A stretch of DNA of 20,389 bases from a virus. The stretch spans positions 1-20,389 of the IMG/VR virus record IMGVR_UViG_3300043122_000008. One strand, 5' to 3'. This document shows positions 4,323 through 20,389 of the stretch, piece after piece; position 1 is the first letter of the stretch; each line of letters starts with the position of its first letter. The translations under genes were made by a program, and so were the position numbers. The notes under the pieces were generated by a model, which was not told the origin of the DNA, did no database searches, and worked only from the letters and a program-made list of their open reading frames with translations.

Positions 4323-7300
4323 CTATCCCTTATAACCTGTTTCTTTGTTATGAGCATTTACTCCATTAGCAATACTTGGGAGCATTCTGAAGACTTCTGC
4401 TCTAGTTTGACGTGATACGTCACCTGTAATGTTAAGATTAATAACTTGCTGTGGTGTATCCTTTACTTTGCGCTTGGTCGGTTTAGCATCATTTCTCATC
4501 GGTAATGTAGAATTGATACCAGTTACAGGACCACCTGTTGCGAAATGTGGAATAAGGCCACGATTAATGTTCTCGAGGAGTCTGCGATGTTTCTTGGTTT
4601 GCTTGGCATTAATAACATATTCGCCATTTGACAATCTAGCGTAGATAGAATCAGAGGTACCAGTACCCGGACCAGTAATATAACCACCTGTAGCGGCAGC
4701 CACACTATTTCCAAAGAGCCCAGAGACAAATGTCATAGCAGTCCCAAAGAAACCACTTAGACCACTACCGGCAGACATCAAAGCATCACCAATACCTGTA
4801 ACAATCCCAGAGAAAAAGGAAAATACTTTTGAGCCTAAACCATCATTTTGTGTCAAGGTATCACTGATCCCATCAAACATTCCTTTAAAAACGCCTGAAA
4901 CGTTCTCATAAAGACTTGATCCAAAAGATTGGAGGCTTTCTGTAAGTTTACCATTTTCACCAGTCAATGGATCTAACATGCCATTGATAAATGTATCAAT
5001 TATGCTATTAGTAAGTGTACTGGCGATATTGGCAACAAAATCTCCTATATCATTTTCACCTTTAAGGAGACCCTGGAAAGCACTAGTAAGGCCTGAATGG
5101 ACTGAAGTAGCCATTTCAATACCAGCTTGTTTAATTGACTCTAATCTAGACAGCTTAGGATCTTTTGAAGATCTCTCAATTTCATCTTCAAGATGCCGTT
5201 TAGCTGTATTTACCAAAGATTGTGCTGCACGTTTCTCTTGGGGCGAAGCACCTTCAGCTTGCATTATTGCTGTTTGTTCTTCAATGGTCTTTAAAAGACC
5301 GGCAATCTTAGACCGTCCTGCCATATCGATCATATTAAATGCAGAATCTTCAATATTGATACCAATATCATTTAATGCAAATTTAGTCTTTGCACCAAAA
5401 TCTTTCTTGCTAACAGCTATAAGAGCATTTTCAATAAGTCTTTGCATGTCATCTGCTACTTGTTTTGCAGTTTTGTTACCTGCACCGACATCTTGAAGTT
5501 TACGTTCTTGTTGAATATCTAGCGCAGCATTATACAATTGCTGTAAATCAACCAAAGATAGCTGTTGAAGCTGTTCTTTCATTTCAGATAGTTTCGGTAC
5601 CACTCCTGTAATTGTGTCAACAACTTCAGAAGTTTTCATTGTACTAAAGCTATCCTTTGCTAAGATTGCGCTTACACCACTTTGGAGATATTGAAGTTGT
5701 GTTGCAAATGATGCTTCACGTTGTTCTTTGAAAACATTCATAGCATCATTAAGTGGTTTGCTAAAATTGACATCCGAAGATTTAGCTGAGTTTTGATCTG
5801 ATTTATCTTTAGCTGAGTTTTGATCTGATTTATCTTTAGCTGAGTTTTGGTCTGATTTATCTTTAGTGAGATTTGTACCCAGATATTTTGTTAAGGTACC
5901 ATCTAATTTATCAAGCATTGTCCTAGCACTATCTGCCAGCTGAATCTGCAGTTCTTCAGGTAACATTGCAAATTCTTCTTTAGACAAATTAAGACTGAAA
6001 GCCTGATTAATCGAATCAAGTTTACCAGCAAAGGTATCGAATATCTTTTGCATTCGATTTAGAATCGTCTCAGCTTCATCCAACTCAGCTACAATTTGCT
6101 CAAAAGGCTTAGTTTTATCACCGGATTCAATTAGATGATTAAGATAAATGACGCTTTTCTGTGCATCAATTATTTGCGTACGCATTTCTTTTGGAATGGC
6201 AAGCAATTTCTTATTATCAGAGAATCCAGCATCTTTCAATAATTGGAATTGGCTTGAAATAGTCTTTCCAAGATTATTAAAGAAAGATTTAAAAGCAAGC
6301 CTAGCGGCCTTAATCTTATTCGTAAGAATTTGATCAAATTCAGCCTTCGATACTACTTCATCAGTCTGTGACATTGACTTATTAATATCTTTGACTAATG
6401 TGTTAGCTTCGACTAGATTATTTAAACTAGACTTATCCATTGCAGCGATATCTTCAAGGGATATATTAATGCCCAGTGAAGATATATTACTGATAAATGT
6501 TTGCAGATCAGTTGGGGTTTCACTCAAAGCTTCACGAATATTATACAACCTTTTATAAAGTGATTCAATACCACTGGTATTCCCTGAAAGCTCTGCTTGA
6601 TAGATCTTATCTTGAACTTCCTTGAAATCTTTCAAGAGACTTAAAGATCTATCGAACCCCTTAGAACGAACTACTTGGCTAAGATCAACGCCTGCCATTC
6701 CAGCAAGATCATTTGATAAAAGTACTTGATTTGTATCGTTAAATAACTTAAGAATCTTTTGATCGATATTCTTTTTATCACGCTCGATCTTAGCATACTG
6801 CATAAGATAATCACGTTCAGTGGGTGCCATTTGTGACATCAATCGAGTTACAAATTGACGAGACTGCGCAGGACTGATACCCATCATCTTAGTGTATCTA
6901 TTCTCTTCACCATTAAATAATGCTGAAAGATTTTCCATAAAGGATTTTTGATCTACACTAACACGTCGCAAGAAAAAGAGACGATCTCTATCAGAAGGTG
7001 CAAGATTTTCTAAGAGCTCTTTATGTGCCTTGTCATAGGTAGTTCCAATATTAGACAGAGTACTAGGAAATTTAGTTTGTAAAAGTTCAGAAGCTGTTTG
7101 AATCTTAGTCATCTCAGCGAATAATTGCTCAGCTACCTCATCACCAAGACCTCTAAAAGATCTATCAGATGCCCAGTTAATACCTATAGACTCAGCTAAA
7201 GACTTAAGCTTGAATTGTTTTCTGGAATTATTATTAGTCTTTGCTGTGTTAATGATCGATTCAATTTCAACCTTAATGCCAGCAAGAGCATTTGCATATC

Positions 7301-10300
7301 TGTTGAGATCTCGTACATTATCTGCTTGTGCCATATCTTTAAAGATACGTGTGGCAGACTTACTAAGATGTTCGAGTCTAAGTAAAGATTCCTCATCATT
7401 AGCAAACAAAGAACTTGTATCTAATGTCATCCCAATATCTTTTAGACTATTCTGAAGATTAGATACCCGTTTTTGGAACTTAGAAATATTCTTAGATTCC
7501 CTGTTAAACTTAATCTGAGCTTCATTTGCTTTGATTAATTTATCAAGTAATTTATTATACGCTTGTGCCAAAGGATTTGAGTCAGGTAATTTGGTAAGGC
7601 CTCTTTGAAAACCACCTGTAAATGTTATAAGCCACCTAGATTCTCTTGTGCCTACTGCTTCTGCTGCCTTTTTGAATTTCTTCTGGAGCTCTTCAGTAGC
7701 AATCTGCAGTTGATCATTGGTATAGAGCAGTGATTTAGACTGCTTTTCAAGATCAATTAAATAATCAAGTTTAGGCGATACAGGACCTTTATAACGTATA
7801 TTGTACTTGGTATCTCGCAGTTCTTCCAAACGCTTCATATCTTTGAAGGTATCAGAATTATCTCTGCCTGCAATTTGATTTAAAGTTTTCCTGAGACTTA
7901 AGAGCCATTTATTCCAAGCATAGCTCCTATCAAGCATCTTTTGTTTAGACCAAGAAACAGCTGTATCAACCCAAGTTCCAGGTTCTTTGAAGAATTTAAG
8001 ACTTTCAAGGTATTCTCCAAAATTTTCAATCTTATCGCCAGACTTAACTTCAAGATGTTTTGTGTATCTATCAAGGGCTCTATTCAGATCCTCAATAGAT
8101 TTATGGGTATCACTGGAGATTTCACCTGTAGTAATCTTTTGGAAATCTGCAGATTCAACTGTATCTGAGAACTCCTTGAGCATTTCTTTGAGCTTCTTTT
8201 TCTCTTTGCTCGATATCTCATCAAAATCAATACCACTAACATCAAAGGTAAGTTTTAGTTGATTTTTCTTAGCAAGGTCTTCAAGGGCTTTACTAATCCC
8301 AGACTTACCCAATTCTTTAGGTACGGATCCTAATGTATGTTGCCATACCCACTTAAAACCATCACCTATTGTCTCCCAGAATTTGCCTTTGGGACCAAAG
8401 AGGAGTACACCGGCTGCACCTACAGCCGCTACAATAGCTGTTACTATTAAACCTGTTGTACTAGTAATTGCTGAAAAAACTGATCCAATAGCTTTTGTGA
8501 TTACACTAACTATACCCTTCGGTAATAAAGTAGTCAAACCAGCAAGCATTAAGCCAGCTGAAGCATCAAACTCATCTTTACCCTGTGCTACTCGACTCGC
8601 GACACCACCAACCAAATAAGCGCCTGCAGCAATACCCGCTCTTCTCATGAACATTGCCCCACTACCACCAAAGTATGCACTAATTGCGGCAAAACCTTTC
8701 TTGATAGTTGAGGGATCTATAAGATTTGAGAAAAGCATCCTAGCTTGAGATCTAAATTTAATCAAAGCACCCATCAAAGAAACCAAGGTGGTTCCAATGA
8801 TGATTGTAGTAACTTTTAAGAATGGATTCTCAAGTTTAATTTTATTCCAAGTTGTCGCCAAGTCATCCATGGGGGATGAATCATCTTTAAATGACATATC
8901 AGATGATTCTTGGGCTGAAGCTATACCTGCCATTAAAGCAAGTATAGTGGTAATGATTGCAACCTTGCCGAATTTGCCAAGAAATAGTCTACCTAAAAGA
9001 CCTTGAGAACCTGCTAATTTCATAGCATAGGTATTTACAGATCGTAATTGGTTCTTAGCTTTAGCGGCAATATCAGATAGTGATCTTGTGGCTTTCGAAG
9101 TGGCCGATGCAGCACTACCTCCACCGCCAAACATTCCTGCAAAGTTATTAAAAAGAGGATTAATCTTTGCGCTCTTATCAGGTTTCAAGTATTTTTCATA
9201 AAAGCTGCGTGTATCTTTAGGAGCAAACCCACCAACACCTGTAAAAACAGATGCAATGTTAGCTGCTTGACGTTTACCAAAGTTCTTTTTAAATGTGATT
9301 TTGACCCATGAAACCATCTCACCGATTCTAGATTTAATGGATTGAATGGTGCTTTTAGCATCAGTACCAAAGAGTATTCTATCTAGATAGCTATGAGTAG
9401 TATTCCAAGCGGGTCGAATTAAATCAGCTGTCCAATCAGCGGCAGAATTCCAAGCCTTAGCAAGAGCAGTTTTAAGACGCTTACCAAAAGTATTAGAAAG
9501 AGCACTATTGGCAGCACCAGCCCCACCGTACACAATAGCATTCAGCCAGTTAAGTTTCTTATTAGAACTAATAAAATATTTTAGTTCACGGCTTAATGGC
9601 TTGAATACTTTTGATTTAATTGTACCGACAATTTTACCGGACAGTTCATCTCCATGCCACAAGGCGGCTAAGATTCCAGCTTTAGCACCATAATTAAGTA
9701 CTGGCATATCTTGAAATAAAGAATCTAGCATACCCATTTGATCTATTGCAAGACCGAGTAAACCGATGGTACGAGTAGGCCCAAGACGACCAAAGATAAA
9801 TCTAGAGATCATACCTCCATTTTTACCTCTAATCAATCCAGACATATTCTTAAAGACTTTACCTAGAGATCCAATCTCTTTCTGGCCTTTTTTGAAGACA
9901 TTAAAGAGGTCCATCCCCATGCTACCTAAGAGAATAGCACCTAAAATACCCAGAGGACCGCTCAGATTTAATTGATCCGTAAAATCAAATAAACCTCTAA
10001 TCGCATTAGAGATCTTCGGGAATTGTTCTATAAAACCTCTAAAGAAACCTGTTACGCCTTTACCCAAATCTCTGAGTATAATAGGTATCTCTCTAGCGGC
10101 AACTCGCATAGCTGTACCAACAATGGTACCTATCTTATTTCCTACTGCATACATCAAGCTTCCGCCCGTAAAAGCTGCACCAAATTGCTCTGCAACTATA
10201 GTTCCACTAGTGGCAAAACTCGTCACAAGGGCAGCTAAAATATACTTCTTAATAATATTTGCAGGAAATAAGAGTTGTACCAATACAGCGCCAATTGCGG

Positions 10301-12476
10301 CAGATGCCCCTTTCATTAGAGATGGAAAGGCTTCAAAAAGATCTTTAAATAGCTGGGTCATTGACTCTTTGATGGATATAAATGCATCCATAAAACTAGA
10401 GCCTTTGATCTTTGGAAGTTTAAATTCATTAATTACAATTTTAAACTTTGTAAATTCAGGGACATCAATATCGAAATTCTTTACTCGATTGAAAAGCCCC
10501 TGAAAGACCGTTATAGTACCTTTAGCAAAAGTATTTAAACCACCTTTTGCTTTATCCCAGAGACCCTTAGAAGTAGACACAACTGTTTCCACAGTATCAG
10601 TCCACCATGAGTGTCCAATAACAGCATCATAGATATTGAAGAAAACTTCAATTACCTTTTTACCAAAGCTTCTGATATGTTGTAATGCTTTTGTGAAAGG
10701 ACTTTTATCTAATATACCATCAAAAAGTTTTCCAAGTTCTTCTTGAACTCTTTCGCGAAATTCTTTCAAAGCATCAATTATTTTATCAGCTCGAATAAGT
10801 TTTGCTATTTTATTAAAGATTCTACGAACTGTTTTAAAGAGATCAACCAGAGGCGTCTGCAACACCATAAAGACATTTACAAAATCTGAAAAAGTCTCAG
10901 CTAAAGATTTCGAAGCACCACCAACATAATTGATGATAACTGTAAGAGATTTCGCAACAATTGTTGGTAACATTAAAAAGAGCTCTTTAACTGTTCCCGC
11001 TATGTTGTAAACCTCTGGCAAGAAAGTGTTGGAAATAATTCGGCCTACTTGATAGATCTTGACAGTAAGGCCACTGATTCCTTTTGCCAGTTCATTTATA
11101 GATTTTAAGAAATTTTCAAGATGGCCACGTTTAAATGTGAAGATCTTGGCACTGTCAAAATTGAAATAATCTTTGACCCTACGCCAACCAAATTCTGCAT
11201 TTATAACAAACTCGGTAATTTGACTTCCAAGAGTGTTATAATTCTTCGAGACAGCAATTGCTAAGCGCTTTAATCCTGCTGCATATTCTTGAAGATTCTT
11301 ACGACTAAAGAACCGTTCCAATGTTAGTTTATTCCAACCAGCACCAGTCCAGTTCTTTGGGTTTAATGACTTAAGATCATCTAATGCTTTCTCTACATCA
11401 GATTTGAAACTAAGTTTTGCAAAAGGATTAAAGTTCTTAAACTTTTCAAAATAACTCCCAGTAGACCTATCAAGGATAGTAAGAGCATCTCGAATATCAT
11501 CCTTAAGCGTTCTCGTCAAGACTCCACGTGGTAAAACTTTCAGGAATTGTTTACCAAGAGCACTTACAATACCAAACATTGGTTTAGCAATAGATTTGAT
11601 TCCACCAAGTGTTTGGTGATAGTAATATGCTATTCTGGTACCTAATTCAAAAGCATCTCTAGAAGCTTGCCGTATTGCTTTACTTAAACTGAATGTCCTA
11701 AGACCCATAGCAGTTGTCAGTCCAAGACCTTTATCTAATTCAGATACATAGATCTTAATAGAATCTGAAAGAGATGTCTTTGCTTGTGCTAAAGAAGGTG
11801 CTAATTGGCCAAACTCGCTATTAATTGTTCTAGATTGATTAAGTAAAGATTTAAATACAACATCACTGGTAAGCTTACCTTCAGCAGCTAACCCACGTAG
11901 TTTACCAGTGGTAACTCCAATTTCATCTGCAATTGCTTTGGCAATCCTTGGCGCTTGTTCCAATACAGAGTTCAGTTCTTGACCTCTGAGTGTACCAGAG
12001 GAGATACCCTGTCCTAACTGAATAATGGCAGCGGCAGCAGACTGAGCACCCATATCATCGATAGCAACAGCCTTCTGGATAGATTCAGTAACTTTCAAAA
12101 TCTTATCCAGAGGTGTACCTGTAGATTTGAGTGCACGTCCAAAAGATGAAAAGACTTGGACAGTACCAGAGAGGGAACCTCTTGTACGTTCAGCCATCTT
12201 AAAGAGCTGTTCTTGAGTGGTCAATAGATCTTTAGAACGACCTGTAACTGTAGCAATCTTATTATTAAGACTGGTAAATTCAGTTGATACATTCTTAAGA
12301 TAATTAATAGCAAAGCCACCGGCTGCAAGAGCTCCGATAGACTTTACTAATCCCCTCATAGATTCAGAAGTTTTACTAGTGGTCTTGTCGATGTTACTTA
12401 CAGCTTTTTCTACATTAGCTAGTTGTTTTTCCGCTTTTGATGTTTTAGCATTTACATCAACAATAACACCAGACAT
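4323..12476 (-). CDS. Tail tape measure protein, 2717 aa
   Basis: This protein sets tail length and is threaded through the tail tube. I chose the ATG at 12476: GAGG sits 5 bases upstream of it, whereas the in-frame GTG at 12482 overlaps that GAGG. Residues about 70-250 match the tape measure N-terminal domain, including S-G-T-L-R-G-Q-E-L-N-S-V-L and A-A-E-G-K-L-T-S-D-V. The C-terminus (about 2596-2650) has the usual G-G-Y-I-T-G-P-G-T-G-T-S-D-S-I block followed by S-N-G-E-Y-V-I. Long helical and coiled-coil stretches fill the middle. Several hydrophobic segments are present, for example about 1169-1187, which looks like a signal peptide ending in A-S-A-Q. No lysozyme or peptidase motif was seen. 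At about 0.15 nm per residue the tail would be close to 400 nm. A 9-residue repeat lies at 2206-2232. Confidence 0.95.
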   Translation of the reverse strand: MSGVIVDVNAKTSKAEKQLANVEKAVSNIDKTTSKTSESMRGLVKSIGALAAGGFAINYLKNVSTEFTSLNNKIATVTGRSKDLLTTQEQLFKMAERTRGSLSGTVQVFSSFGRALKSTGTPLDKILKVTESIQKAVAIDDMGAQSAAAAIIQLGQGISSGTLRGQELNSVLEQAPRIAKAIADEIGVTTGKLRGLAAEGKLTSDVVFKSLLNQSRTINSEFGQLAPSLAQAKTSLSDSIKIYVSELDKGLGLTTAMGLRTFSLSKAIRQASRDAFELGTRIAYYYHQTLGGIKSIAKPMFGIVSALGKQFLKVLPRGVLTRTLKDDIRDALTILDRSTGSYFEKFKNFNPFAKLSFKSDVEKALDDLKSLNPKNWTGAGWNKLTLERFFSRKNLQEYAAGLKRLAIAVSKNYNTLGSQITEFVINAEFGWRRVKDYFNFDSAKIFTFKRGHLENFLKSINELAKGISGLTVKIYQVGRIISNTFLPEVYNIAGTVKELFLMLPTIVAKSLTVIINYVGGASKSLAETFSDFVNVFMVLQTPLVDLFKTVRRIFNKIAKLIRADKIIDALKEFRERVQEELGKLFDGILDKSPFTKALQHIRSFGKKVIEVFFNIYDAVIGHSWWTDTVETVVSTSKGLWDKAKGGLNTFAKGTITVFQGLFNRVKNFDIDVPEFTKFKIVINEFKLPKIKGSSFMDAFISIKESMTQLFKDLFEAFPSLMKGASAAIGAVLVQLLFPANIIKKYILAALVTSFATSGTIVAEQFGAAFTGGSLMYAVGNKIGTIVGTAMRVAAREIPIILRDLGKGVTGFFRGFIEQFPKISNAIRGLFDFTDQLNLSGPLGILGAILLGSMGMDLFNVFKKGQKEIGSLGKVFKNMSGLIRGKNGGMISRFIFGRLGPTRTIGLLGLAIDQMGMLDSLFQDMPVLNYGAKAGILAALWHGDELSGKIVGTIKSKVFKPLSRELKYFISSNKKLNWLNAIVYGGAGAANSALSNTFGKRLKTALAKAWNSAADWTADLIRPAWNTTHSYLDRILFGTDAKSTIQSIKSRIGEMVSWVKITFKKNFGKRQAANIASVFTGVGGFAPKDTRSFYEKYLKPDKSAKINPLFNNFAGMFGGGGSAASATSKATRSLSDIAAKAKNQLRSVNTYAMKLAGSQGLLGRLFLGKFGKVAIITTILALMAGIASAQESSDMSFKDDSSPMDDLATTWNKIKLENPFLKVTTIIIGTTLVSLMGALIKFRSQARMLFSNLIDPSTIKKGFAAISAYFGGSGAMFMRRAGIAAGAYLVGGVASRVAQGKDEFDASAGLMLAGLTTLLPKGIVSVITKAIGSVFSAITSTTGLIVTAIVAAVGAAGVLLFGPKGKFWETIGDGFKWVWQHTLGSVPKELGKSGISKALEDLAKKNQLKLTFDVSGIDFDEISSKEKKKLKEMLKEFSDTVESADFQKITTGEISSDTHKSIEDLNRALDRYTKHLEVKSGDKIENFGEYLESLKFFKEPGTWVDTAVSWSKQKMLDRSYAWNKWLLSLRKTLNQIAGRDNSDTFKDMKRLEELRDTKYNIRYKGPVSPKLDYLIDLEKQSKSLLYTNDQLQIATEELQKKFKKAAEAVGTRESRWLITFTGGFQRGLTKLPDSNPLAQAYNKLLDKLIKANEAQIKFNRESKNISKFQKRVSNLQNSLKDIGMTLDTSSLFANDEESLLRLEHLSKSATRIFKDMAQADNVRDLNRYANALAGIKVEIESIINTAKTNNNSRKQFKLKSLAESIGINWASDRSFRGLGDEVAEQLFAEMTKIQTASELLQTKFPSTLSNIGTTYDKAHKELLENLAPSDRDRLFFLRRVSVDQKSFMENLSALFNGEENRYTKMMGISPAQSRQFVTRLMSQMAPTERDYLMQYAKIERDKKNIDQKILKLFNDTNQVLLSNDLAGMAGVDLSQVVRSKGFDRSLSLLKDFKEVQDKIYQAELSGNTSGIESLYKRLYNIREALSETPTDLQTFISNISSLGINISLEDIAAMDKSSLNNLVEANTLVKDINKSMSQTDEVVSKAEFDQILTNKIKAARLAFKSFFNNLGKTISSQFQLLKDAGFSDNKKLLAIPKEMRTQIIDAQKSVIYLNHLIESGDKTKPFEQIVAELDEAETILNRMQKIFDTFAGKLDSINQAFSLNLSKEEFAMLPEELQIQLADSARTMLDKLDGTLTKYLGTNLTKDKSDQNSAKDKSDQNSAKDKSDQNSAKSSDVNFSKPLNDAMNVFKEQREASFATQLQYLQSGVSAILAKDSFSTMKTSEVVDTITGVVPKLSEMKEQLQQLSLVDLQQLYNAALDIQQERKLQDVGAGNKTAKQVADDMQRLIENALIAVSKKDFGAKTKFALNDIGINIEDSAFNMIDMAGRSKIAGLLKTIEEQTAIMQAEGASPQEKRAAQSLVNTAKRHLEDEIERSSKDPKLSRLESIKQAGIEMATSVHSGLTSAFQGLLKGENDIGDFVANIASTLTNSIIDTFINGMLDPLTGENGKLTESLQSFGSSLYENVSGVFKGMFDGISDTLTQNDGLGSKVFSFFSGIVTGIGDALMSAGSGLSGFFGTAMTFVSGLFGNSVAAATGGYITGPGTGTSDSIYARLSNGEYVINAKQTKKHRRLLENINRGLIPHFATGGPVTGINSTLPMRNDAKPTKRKVKDTPQQVINLNITGDVSRQTRAEVFRMLPSIANGVNAHNKETGYKG
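5781..5861 (-). repeat. Three tandem 27-bp repeats in the tape measure gene
   Basis: Units run 5781-5807, 5808-5834 and 5835-5861. The first two are identical and the third differs at one base (5850). In the protein they give D-K-S-D-Q-N-S-A-K three times (residues 2206-2232), a hydrophilic linker. The near identity at DNA level, including synonymous positions, points to recent expansion. Confidence 0.97.
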
Positions 12477-13867: not shown

Positions 13868-13943
13868 TGGGGCTCACAATAGGACTCGAACCTATAACCT
13901 GCTGATTACAAGGCAGCTGCTCTTCCTATTGAGCTATGCGAGC
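13868..13943 (-). tRNA. tRNA-Thr(UGU) with encoded CCA
   Basis: The 76-nt cloverleaf is complete: acceptor GCTCGCA/TGTGAGC with one G-U pair, T8, D arm GCTC/GAGC with GG in the loop, anticodon loop CTTGTAA, five-base variable region, T arm ATAGG/CCTAT with loop TTCGAGT, then C73 and a genomic CCA. The anticodon TGT (13910-13908) reads ACA threonine codons. The anticodon stem closes with a C-U mismatch at 31/39. It begins 7 bases after the tail tube stop and has no promoter of its own that I can see, so it is probably cut out of the virion-gene transcript. It may supply ACA decoding for this AT-rich phage. Confidence 0.93.
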
Positions 13944-14959: not shown

Positions 14960-15310
14960 TTATACCCCTCGACTTATTTCCAGCAGTGTAACAAATTTGC
15001 CATTGGCAATTACATTTCCTATGGACCATGTAATGTTATTGATTACTACCTCATCAAAGAAAGTAATATCAGGAGCCTCTGTAGTCTTAAGGAGTATTTG
15101 TTTGATTTCTACAGATTTTTCTGATCGTTTTCTTTTTGAATTTAACTCAATAACACTAACATTTAATGTCGAAGGGTTTGTAGGTACACTTGCTGTTGAA
15201 AAATCAAAATCATCAGGATTTTTCTTATTAACTGTAGCTGAGACTACTTGGCTTTTAAGTAATTTAAAAGCATTATCTAAATTTTTGCCAATTAGCAATT
15301 TTATATTCAT
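14960..15310 (-). CDS. Head closure / neck protein
   Basis: The protein is 116 aa. The second half is a series of short strands (V-V-I-N-N-I-T-W-S-I-G-N-V-I, then K-F-V-T-L-L-E-I-S-R-G-V), as in small beta-barrel head closure or stopper proteins that seal the portal channel. The gene lies between the head-tail adaptor and the tail terminator, where such proteins are normally encoded. The start overlaps the upstream stop by one base (TAATG). No diagnostic motif was recognised, so the function rests largely on gene order. Confidence 0.55.
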   Translation of the reverse strand: MNIKLLIGKNLDNAFKLLKSQVVSATVNKKNPDDFDFSTASVPTNPSTLNVSVIELNSKRKRSEKSVEIKQILLKTTEAPDITFFDEVVINNITWSIGNVIANGKFVTLLEISRGV

Positions 15311-15783
15311 TAATTAGCCCTCCACCATGTATTGGAGCCTTTATTAAAGAGGATAGGCTGGATTAACCGTCTTACTACAGACGGAAGTAGATCTGGATTG
15401 ATTATGCCAGTAAGACTGATAGTTCCAATATCCAATGCGTTAACTGTCCCTGTACTGTCTTGTAGTCCCTCATTTTTAAGTAAGTGAAGAGCTAGTTCGA
15501 AGGTCGCTAGAATTATCCGGTTAGGAGTAGGATTCATAAGAGCCATAACTCCCAACCTAGGATCAAAATAATAACCACTACGAGGAAAAGCTAATGTTTG
15601 ATCAACACTTATAGCAATTCCTGTCCAACGCTGAGCGTCTAAGATAGATGTAGCTGTGACCAAGGCTTGTGCTTGCCTGGTACTATCTGCATCTGTCCAT
15701 TCACTGCAATCAAGGCGATCAGCAAAGTAGTCGTCAGCTTCCTGGACAGTCGCATGAGAATTAACTCCTTTAGCGAGTGCCAT
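15310..15783 (-). CDS. Head-tail adaptor protein (DnaT-like domain family)
   Basis: The protein is 157 aa. The pattern starts with N-S-H-A-T-V-Q-E-A-D-D-Y-F-A-D-R and W-T-D-A-D, then a helix ending L-D-A-Q-R-W-T-G, then L-A-F-P-R-S-G, and an A-T-F-E-L-A-L-H-L-L helix. This is the usual layout of phage adaptor proteins annotated as DnaT-like. They bind the portal and begin the neck. The ATG at 15783 has GGGAGAC upstream. It lies 18 bases after the capsid gene and overlaps the next gene by one base. Confidence 0.8.
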   Translation of the reverse strand: MALAKGVNSHATVQEADDYFADRLDCSEWTDADSTRQAQALVTATSILDAQRWTGIAISVDQTLAFPRSGYYFDPRLGVMALMNPTPNRIILATFELALHLLKNEGLQDSTGTVNALDIGTISLTGIINPDLLPSVVRRLIQPILFNKGSNTWWRAN

Positions 15784-17809: not shown

Positions 17810-18199
17810 TTATCCTACACCATACCATCCGTAATCATCTGCAAATCCTTCAGAAATCTTCTCAAGAATGTCATCGACAGAAAGAATATCTTCAATTGTC
17901 AATACTTTTCCACCGATAACTGACTTACCTGGAACAGGAATCAATCCTTTAAGAATTGCTTCTTCTAGGTATTTATCATATAAATTCTTCGGCAATCCTC
18001 TAGCTAACATTTCATCCAGTGTTTGCTTAATAACATTCTTTTCCAAGACTTCTGCATAGATTTCTCTTAATGCTTTTCTAGCGGTCAGCATGTCAGAGGC
18101 GTTTGTAAAGAATGCATCATGAATAGTTGATGTAGGAATCTTTTGAGATTTACCCCACAGATGAAACTTTTTAACAATTACGGCATCATTAGAGTGATT
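17810..18199 (-). CDS. Single-subunit RNA polymerase (T7 type), C-terminal exon
   Basis: The exon has 129 codons and a stop. Its first residues N-H-S-N-D align with the T7 RNA polymerase N-F-V-H-S-Q-D segment (H784), and I-H-D-A-F, 26 residues on from the His, with motif C I-H-D-S-F (D812, a metal-binding catalytic Asp). In T7 that distance is 28. A helical C-terminal tail of about 100 residues follows. The frame continues upstream only to a TTG at 18202 inside the intron, so it has no start of its own. Joined at 18912/18199 the reading frame is kept (phase 0) and the T7 alignment across the join needs no gap. The polymerase would transcribe phage genes. An unrelated phage protein with similar short motifs is the alternative. 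Confidence 0.75.
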   Translation of the reverse strand, partial: NHSNDAVIVKKFHLWGKSQKIPTSTIHDAFFTNASDMLTARKALREIYAEVLEKNVIKQTLDEMLARGLPKNLYDKYLEEAILKGLIPVPGKSVIGGKVLTIEDILSVDDILEKISEGFADDYGWYGVG

Positions 18200-18722
18200 C
18201 AATGTGTTCAGACTGGTCGTTAATCAGTCCCGTTAAAACATTTAATTTGGCAAATTTTCCGTGAATTTTAATAGCAAGCTTATCATAGGCAATAGCAGCT
18301 TCCAATTCTGTTTCAAATTGGCCTATATAGTGACGCCTATTTTGAAATCGAATGGAAGCTTTCCAACAATTTTTTACTTTATCAAACCATACACCCTTAT
18401 AATTGCTGGAACCATTTTTCTGTCTTGCTTTATTATATTGATTTTCAAGTGATGTGGCAAGTCGTAGATTATGTATATTATTATTTAATCGATTACCATC
18501 AATATGATCTATAAACAAATCATCAGGGATTTCTTTATTAGTTAGATAGAACCAAACTAATCGATGTATATAATAGTATTTTCCATCAACTCTTACACGT
18601 CGATAACCGTCTTCAGCAATATATCCAGCTTCTGCATTTTTCTTTGCTGAACCTCTTGAAATACGATTAAAAAATTTACCATCTTTGTAGTAGAAAAGGG
18701 CCTTAAGGCGTTCTAACTTCAT
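18189..18722 (-). CDS. HNH homing endonuclease with AP2 DNA-binding domain
   Basis: The protein is 177 aa. Residues about 51-90 form an HNH_3-type nuclease: I-H-R-L-V-W, then I-D-H-I-D-G-N (His73) and H-N-L-R-L-A-T (Asn85). Residues 106-161 are an AP2-type domain, from S-N-Y-K-G-V-W through Y-I-G-Q-F to A-A-I-A-Y-D-K-L-A and the closing K-L-N. AGGAG lies 6 bases before the ATG. Such enzymes cut intronless alleles so that the intron is copied in. The last codons and stop (18199-18189) lie in the 3' exon, so the gene is intact only in unspliced RNA or from an internal transcript. This type of endonuclease is common in phage group I introns. Confidence 0.92.
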   Translation of the reverse strand: MKLERLKALFYYKDGKFFNRISRGSAKKNAEAGYIAEDGYRRVRVDGKYYYIHRLVWFYLTNKEIPDDLFIDHIDGNRLNNNIHNLRLATSLENQYNKARQKNGSSNYKGVWFDKVKNCWKASIRFQNRRHYIGQFETELEAAIAYDKLAIKIHGKFAKLNVLTGLINDQSEHIESL

Positions 18723-18911
18723 TATGTCTCCTGTTTTAACTGCTATATGTCGCCATATAGATCAGACTATATCTTACACTTAGAGTGCCTCCGCGCTTCG
18801 AGCGGACTTCCGCCCTACATAATAGTCGTTGCACCTTCAATTAAGCTTGGCTCAGAGTTGTCTCAGAGAGAGTTTCTCTGAATTCACGGAGTTTTACAAC
18901 GGCATATCACT
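18200..18911 (-). mobile_element. Group I self-splicing intron, 712 nt
   Basis: The 5' exon end CAACGGU (18918-18912) pairs over 7 bp with GCCGUUG (18903-18897), with the canonical U-G pair at the splice site and an 8-nt loop: this is P1. Intron bases GUGAU (18910-18906) pair with AUCAC in the 3' exon (P10). The last base is G (18200), as required. AACGACUA (R-like, about 18830-18823) and AAGAUAUAGUC (S-like, 18775-18765) can form P7. CAGAGA/UCUCUG gives a P2-like hairpin and CACU-CUA-AGUG a P8-like one. The catalytic core lies upstream of the endonuclease gene, which fills the 3' part. Confidence 0.92.
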
Positions 18912-19932
18912 ACCGTTGACTGCAAAAGCTGTTCTCGCCTTAGTAGCATCTGCAATATCATTTATCTTACCTGCTTTATTTGCAATTTGTTCCCACCAAG
19001 AAGCTTCGGTCTTTTGGGGTATTTGGAGAATATTCGTAATCCAATTTCCAAAGCGATCTTTGTATACAAGTCGTTCTTCAAAAGATTGTGTGAAATTTTG
19101 CTCAATAACTTTACCGTCAAAGTTAACCCAAGGTACATTCGTCCAACTCTTAGGTAAGTTATTCTTGATCTTTTTCTTTTTACCAACTTTAGCTTCAGGG
19201 ATTTTTATCTCTAAAAGATTCTTTCCTTTTATAAATTTCACTTTAAAGATATCCCCGGCTATACGTCTATCTTCAGGCACCGAGGGGCCGTAGATCAAGT
19301 CATGGAGGGTGCCGTTAGGCTTCCAGAAAGGTAGGCGTCGCAGAAGTTTTTCACTTATGGGTTCACCTGCCTTGGTTCCCAAAACGCGAGCCCACTCAGG
19401 GGGAATTACGTAACCCTTCTTCTTATGCTTCAAAAGATGTATCTTAGCGACAGAAATCCAGTCAAAATCAGAATTTGAAGGCTTTGCATGACTTAAAAAA
19501 TCTTCAGCTAATCTTCCAAAATACCTCGTAAAATCTTTTAAAATTGGGACTTGCTCTTGAAGATATTCACTCATTATTTTAGCAATATCTCTAAAGTCAG
19601 ACGGAGTAACAACCTTATTGTAAGCATGTGATAAGTTCTCCACAAGCTCACGTGTTTTTGGCTCAAGGAAGTAGAGTTGCTCAAGGATATCATCTCCAGG
19701 ATCTAACCCTTTATTGAAAATATCACGTACATTTTCACGTAGACCTCGAAGTTCTAAAGATAATTCTGGATCGAACTTTTCATATCTTGCTATTCGAGCA
19801 GATATTTCATTCAATACTTTATCCCTATCAGAGGCTTTTACAACTAATACATCAGAATCTTTACCAAGAACTTTCGCAAGTTTACCTTCAACATTAAGTA
19901 TACCAGTTCTTTCACCTGCGCCATAAAATGTA
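18912..19932 (-). CDS. Single-subunit RNA polymerase (T7 type), exon with motif B end
   Basis: The exon has about 340 codons. It opens with T-F-Y-G-A-G-E-R-T-G, which fits the end of motif B (T7 M-T-L-A-Y-G, Y639). The block D-I-A-K-I-M-S-E-Y-L followed by D-F-D-W-I-S-V resembles the T7 region Y-M-A-K-L-I-W to H-W-V-T-P-D-G. It ends A-F-A-V-N-G at the 5' splice site 18912. From Tyr to the His in the next exon there are about 339 residues against 145 in T7, so about 190 residues are inserted, including a Lys-rich part (K-V-G-K-K-K-K-I-K). Motif A and the N-terminal half lie upstream of the window. The 3' splice boundary near 19932 is inferred. Confidence 0.7.
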
Positions 19933-20389
19933 CAATAATGGAATTATAGATAAAAATAGCCTTTATCGTTTCTACGTATTCTCTTAGAAATAGTAGAATG
20001 ATGTATATTGATTGCCTTGCCAGCAGCTCTTACAGAAGAAAATATTCCAAAAGGTGTATGTACAGGTTTTCGTAAATGTTTTCCATGCTGAGATGGAACC
20101 TCATCGATAATGGGGCTATCTTTGTGATAATAACCCTTATGTAATACACTTTTGCTTTTTGCTTTCTTCGATATAATTGCTTTTTGAACACCATGCGCTT
20201 TTGCTGCTGCTGCAACTGTTGGAAATTCACCTAATGGCGTAACTACAGCCTTTGCTCTAGGTGAATTGTTTCCACTAACTGCCTTTCTTGCAATCTCGTA
20301 CATCTTAGGTGTTAGTCTTATATTCTTCCTACTACACATTGTCGTATAAGCAATATTTAATACTGGTAATTTAAAGATACGCATTAGAA
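19933..20389 (-). mobile_element. Second intervening sequence (probable group I intron) in the RNA polymerase gene, 5' part outside window
   Basis: The polymerase frame is interrupted: upstream of T-F-Y-G comes a TAA (19946-19944) ending a homing-endonuclease-like gene. The only G between that stop and the motif is at 19933, so under the group I rule (intron ends in G) the 3' splice site should be 19933/19932. The layout, with an endonuclease gene ending close to the 3' splice site, copies the other intron. The P1, core and 5' splice site would be beyond the edge, so the class is not proven. Confidence 0.6.
19944..20389 (-). CDS. Homing endonuclease C-terminal region with two IENR1-type repeats, partial
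   Basis: The frame is open to the right edge, with an ATG at 20384 that has no visible ribosome-binding site context, so the protein probably starts outside. A NUMOD3-like stretch (about L-T-P-K-M-Y-E-I-A-R-K-A-V-S-G) is followed by two repeats of the intron-encoded nuclease type: V-T-P-L-G-E-F-P-T-V-A-A-A-A-K and H-T-P-F-G-I-F-S-S-V-R-A-A-G-K, each ending in K-G-Y-[YF]. These are DNA-binding modules of homing endonucleases. No nuclease motif (GIY-YIG or HNH) is present in the visible part, so it is either upstream or lost. Confidence 0.72.
   Translation of the reverse strand, partial: LMRIFKLPVLNIAYTTMCSRKNIRLTPKMYEIARKAVSGNNSPRAKAVVTPLGEFPTVAAAAKAHGVQKAIISKKAKSKSVLHKGYYHKDSPIIDEVPSQHGKHLRKPVHTPFGIFSSVRAAGKAINIHHSTISKRIRRNDKGYFYL

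Follow-up and report, generated by a model that had tools for sequence, protein, structure and literature searches.

An apparently mobile group I intron next to the catalytic centre of a T7-type phage RNA polymerase gene

Group I introns in phage RNA polymerase genes are already known in kind, from the motif C intron in the RNAP2 gene of ZC08 and from the virion polymerase intron of PhiPA3. The N4-like Pseudomonas phage ZC08 (KU356691) has an insertion in its T7-type RNAP2 gene that is termed an endonuclease insertion, and not a group I intron, in the accessible part of its description (PMC5418858). When we analysed ZC08 RNAP2 (L234, 4704-4969), a group I intron was found with the Rfam model RF00028 (88.9 bits) together with an HNH_3 gene, and the exon reading frame ended at the VHD of motif C; by eye no convincing P1 was seen in this intron and its splice site was not fixed to the base. 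The gp210 intron of PhiPA3, a putative group I intron of a virion RNA polymerase subunit gene, contains an HNH endonuclease that was shown to nick the gene of a rival phage and to block the rival's virion production (PMC11620839). The zeta-group crAss-like phages have many introns and inteins, disrupted RNA polymerase genes included, and the causes of the disruption were left partly open (PMC7886860). It is established that introns and inteins favour conserved places (PMC2814812), and a single phage gene can have as many as three introns (PMC11878797).

The window analysed here comprises an entire virus record (20,389 bases). At positions 18200-18911 it contains what is very probably a mobile, self-splicing group I intron in the gene of a T7-type single-subunit RNA polymerase, inserted between the equivalents of T7 F782 and V783, two residues before H784. 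This resembles ZC08, where a T7-type polymerase gene is likewise interrupted by a group I intron, but there the site is in motif C (as in the relative L224) and the polymerase is a subunit of the two-part N4 RNAPII type. PhiPA3 is alike in that an intron lies beside the conserved aspartates of a virion polymerase gene, but it is a jumbo phage and its polymerase is multisubunit and of an unrelated fold. The interrupted polymerase of the crAss-like phages differs in being of the double-psi beta-barrel type. P23-45 also carries its polymerase within a virion protein, but as a tape-measure fusion that is homologous to cellular polymerases (PMC10770324). The introns in DNA polymerase and terminase genes of Staphylococcus, Vibrio and Aeromonas phages matched the core DNA at about 68-80% over parts, but differ in their host genes. 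The open literature, with few subscription papers, was searched and gave no report of an intron at this site or in a MuF-fused polymerase. A guessed 21-residue peptide query for N4-like polymerases had no matches and was uninformative.

All features are on the minus strand, in the order end of a second intron, middle exon, intron and 3' exon (Table 1). As the window is the entire record, the start of the RNA polymerase gene falls outside it.

Table 1. Features of the interrupted polymerase gene in the window, and sites of group I introns in this gene among relatives (L004 numbering; a slash marks the insertion point)
Feature	Position or locus	Strand	Remarks
Second group I intron, 3' part	19933..20389	-	motif B (QNMV/TFYG); 5' part outside window
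HNH/NUMOD1 endonuclease of second intron, C-terminal part	19944..20387	-	NUMOD1 6.3e-7
Middle exon, RNA polymerase gene	18912..19932	-	from the end of motif B as far as the T7 F782 equivalent
P1 exon strand CAACGGU	18912..18918	-	pairs with 18897-18903; outermost pair C-G in window
Group I intron, 712 nt	18200..18911	-	Rfam RF00028, exact absence in most homologues, P1 covariation
P10 intron strand AGUGAU	18906..18911	-	6 bp with AUCACU of 3' exon
P1 internal guide GCCGUUG	18897..18903	-	
P3 5' strand CUCCGUG	18885..18891	-	two pairs changed on both sides
P7 5' strand GACUA	18823..18827	-	invariant in seven carriers; crosses P3 as required
P3 3' strand CGCGGAG	18789..18795	-	
P7 3' strand UAGUC	18765..18769	-	
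P9 hairpin	18743..18760	-	endonuclease gene comes after
HNH_3 + AP2 homing-type endonuclease, 177 aa	18189..18722	-	Pfam HNH_3 1.7e-14, AP2 7.7e-9; PHROG 99 8.3e-60
3' exon, RNA polymerase gene	17810..18199	-	H784 equivalent and motif C (IHDAFF), includes stop codon
P10 3' exon strand AUCACU	18193..18198	-	
Site 883, GEAF/RPF	L027		
Site directly behind motif A aspartate, DA/SSSG	L023-L025		
Site 1047	L025		
Motif B site, KA/QNMV	L011, L013, L025, L026, L039		
Motif B site, MV/TFYG	window, L002, L006, L015, L017, L023, L024, L030, L032, L034, L042, L225, L229		
Site 1416	window and carriers		site of the intron 18200-18911
Motif C site, HD/AFF, directly behind aspartate codon	L224 1745-2620		P1 CCACGAU with GUCGUGG

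The boundaries of the intron are exact. The 5' exon ends with GTC AAC GGT at 18912 and the 3' exon begins with AAT CAC TCT at 18199. The initial annotation had fixed the splice sites to the base by a P1 of 7 bp with a U-G pair at the 5' splice site, a terminal G and a P10, and all of these were recovered: the last intron base is the G at 18200 and P10 has 6 bp in the window. The P1 motif occurred once in the window and in none of 100 shuffled sequences. The assignment to the group I introns was borne out by a covariance search, where RF00028 matched from 18951 to 18743 over its full length (model 1-253) with 69.8 bits and an E-value of 3.8e-16. A P3-P8/P4-P6 core with P7 crossing P3 was present, and P3, P4, P5, P7 and P9 were counted. 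The element between P7 and P3 (GGGCGGAAGUCCGCUC) forms the extra hairpin that is typical of subgroup IA. Pairs suggested by RNAalifold (100-102 with 109-111 and 194-196 with 202-204) were discarded in favour of the standard P7.

The same intron was found at the same site in seven independent carriers (the window with L002, and L012, L018, L036, L039, L042 and L177) and partially in two further ones (L041 and L043). In the seven carriers, the named structure paired 98.6% of the cells, compared with 33-45% for slid versions, and 12 pairs were changed on both sides, including one exon-intron pair. The outermost P1 pair, which is formed by one exon and one intron base, was A-U in three carriers, U-A in three and C-G in one, and the U-G at the splice site was kept in all seven. 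P10 had 6 contiguous pairs in the window, 5 in L042 and 2-3 in the other five carriers, and since it is short in most carriers it supports the structure less than P1 does.

Without splicing, the message runs into a TAA at 18896-18894 after five intron codons and lacks the catalytic aspartate of motif C, which lies 28 codons downstream of the intron site. We infer that in vivo the ribozyme cuts itself out of the transcript by means of P1 and P10 and joins the exons to ...AVNG/NHSND.... The restored AVNGNHSND had been aligned with T7 APNFVHSQD, and HMMER gave the identical alignment. Most relatives encode the same junction gap-free, and 99 distinct intronless relatives read straight across it. 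The junction codons AAC-GGT were found in 7 of 7 carriers and in 9 of the 99 distinct intronless sites (p 4.7e-7, with relatedness ignored).

A homing endonuclease gene might alternatively have divided the polymerase into two subunits that are translated separately. This has been proposed for the N4-type RNA polymerases, which consist of two adjacent pieces and for which endonuclease insertion is the suggested cause (PMC5418858). For the present locus such a split is very unlikely. The ribozyme core is complete and its P1 covaries with the exon; the 3' exon lacks its own start codon before the conserved H784 region, where there is only a TTG inside the intron; and when the intact homologues were checked for separate genes, both parts were found as one fused gene in the intronless relatives.

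The group I intron also contains an HNH/AP2 endonuclease gene with its own ribosome site, AGGAGA at 18727-18732, after P9. The endonuclease reading frame crosses the 3' end of the intron, and its last codons and the stop codon lie in the 3' exon (18189-18199). Closely related endonucleases (75-99% identical) were all located at this one polymerase site, and the loci of more distant relatives (under 50%) gave no match to the polymerase gene. In related phages the HNH/AP2 protein would cut or nick the allele that lacks the intron, and these phages would then copy the intron by repair.

Several observations suggest that the intron is mobile. The carriers occupy several places on the exon tree, and in a quick tree built from 93 exon proteins the presence of the intron required 6 changes, at least 5 of which were forced by well-supported branches. 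Close polymerases with and without the intron were L012 versus L016 and L017, L177 versus L147, L036 versus L145, and L018 and L039 versus L015. Between carrier lineages the DNA identity was about 62-70% in the exons, 69-79% in the intron and up to 86% in its core, with higher values throughout for the close carriers L177 and L036 and the very close carriers L018 and L039. The scattered presence and absence, and introns that are more alike than their exons, argue for a mobile element. The carrier sample is biased because some carriers were found through the endonuclease; in a search with the exons only, carriers made up 3 of about 28 loci that covered the site.

The T7-type identity of the interrupted gene, assigned earlier from family knowledge, holds by collinear motifs and by the predicted fold. 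A profile of 38 relatives compared with the PDB had T7 RNA polymerase as the top match with a modest E-value of 0.0014, and the D421-R-G-R, D537, H784 and D812 regions were collinear with T7. All T7 catalytic residues were found in order (DxRaRxY, DASSSGAQ, K-x7-Y-G, HSND and HDAFF); motif C and the end of motif B lie in the window, and motif A and the rest were read in the near-identical L002 and L030 and in relatives. A structure-based comparison with single-subunit RNA polymerases was run and found a match. The AlphaFold model of L004 residues 386-1545 (pLDDT 83.6) matched the human and yeast mitochondrial and the T7 RNA polymerases in Foldseek with E-values of 5e-17 to 2e-14, at TM-scores of only 0.33-0.56, which are low partly because there are about 200 more residues than in T7 between motifs B and C.

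The 3' exon had an RNA polymerase as its PHROG match and scored 24.8 bits with PF00940. This Pfam score is barely over the cut-off of 22, and relatives bear the names head protein, head morphogenesis or minor head protein-like, which would fit a head protein of another function. Such an assignment is hardly credible against the complete ordered set of T7 catalytic residues and a predicted fold that matches single-subunit RNA polymerases, and the head and polymerase names are both compatible with a fusion protein. The intact gene of L004 indeed encodes 1,545 residues in which the polymerase follows a head-type N-terminus, and in DSS3_VP1 (Naomviridae) PF04233 (MuF) and PF00940 were found in one protein of 1,463 residues named head morphogenesis. 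In the relatives, the polymerase is a MuF-RNAP fusion of about 1,500 residues encoded between the portal and major head protein genes. Relatives of the fused polymerase were found on over 560 viral contigs. The MuF part lies outside the window and was taken from relatives and from the near-identical L030, which covers the 5' portion of the gene in this lineage as far as motif B, including the N-terminal head part. From the MuF fusion and the place between the portal and major head genes, the polymerase is probably packaged in the virion, and it would be injected as an early polymerase. The vRNAP of phage N4 is a virion-carried polymerase of the single-subunit type and is not known to be a MuF fusion.

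Downstream of the 3' exon follow scaffold-like, major head, head-tail and tail genes, and the series ends with a tape measure protein of 2,719 residues and a J-like tail protein. A tRNA-Thr (TGT) was found between the structural genes on the coding strand, at 13868-13943. At 15310-15783, in the slot expected for a head-tail connector, there was a Pfam DnaT_2 match (4.6e-17), and this family name may be misleading.

The polymerase gene of the window is interrupted a second time, in motif B. The near-identical L002 holds this intron completely (925-1777; Rfam 72.7 bits at 915-1140), with a P1 of ACAUGGU and GCCAUGU and a P10 of 8 bp (AAAAUGUA with UACAUUUU), read directly from the sequence. A homologue of its endonuclease in EBPR siphovirus 1 has HNH and NUMOD1. 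The initial annotation had overlooked this second intron, did not mention the HNH/AP2 gene in the first and did not extend to the MuF fusion in the relatives; it was incomplete rather than wrong, and its identity call stays intact. Two interruptions could also mean a decaying pseudogene, with the intron and the reading frame as relics. This is the least probable of the alternatives, as every exon is open with intact catalytic motifs, near-identical copies exist in other assemblies (L002 and L030) and compensatory pairs are kept in the ribozyme.

Among the relatives, group I introns were found at seven sites of the polymerase gene (Table 1). L025 has them at three sites together with an intein-like insert in the MuF domain (220-1236, HFRC/YLDDTLVYTKSGF...GSN/C). 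This insert, at reference 248, was not counted as an intron, having an open frame and a Cys at both junctions. Near reference ~992, shortly before motif A, L015, L017, L027 and L032 have inserts of 127-159 codons that resembled introns in the gap table; they are open in frame with no Rfam match there and were therefore counted as protein insertions. In L034 (EBPR siphovirus 1, JF412302) the MV/TFYG site and the endonuclease were seen, with a core below the Rfam gathering score. Its region 6010-11383 is annotated as gp47 (head protein), gp48 (HNH endonuclease) and gp49 (hypothetical), which look like a single MuF-RNA polymerase gene interrupted by an intron at motif B.

Taken together, the intron at 18200-18911 is probably a clean and mobile instance among introns that are strikingly concentrated at the catalytic motifs of a probably injected polymerase. 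It is possible, though we consider it rather doubtful, that virion RNA polymerase genes are repeatedly contested by intron endonucleases. The little-recognised MuF-fused T7-type family would then have its introns at seven sites, including those directly behind both catalytic aspartates, because cutting the injected polymerase gene of a rival is an effective weapon, as was shown for PhiPA3 against PhiKZ with an unrelated polymerase. Group I introns have repeatedly made their home in the catalytic core of a T7-type phage polymerase, and the relatives point to a widespread MuF-RNA polymerase fusion. Intron insertion explains genes that were annotated as separate pieces, such as gp47, gp48 and gp49 of EBPR siphovirus 1, and the many close alleles with and without the intron allow homing, and interference between phages, to be tested directly.
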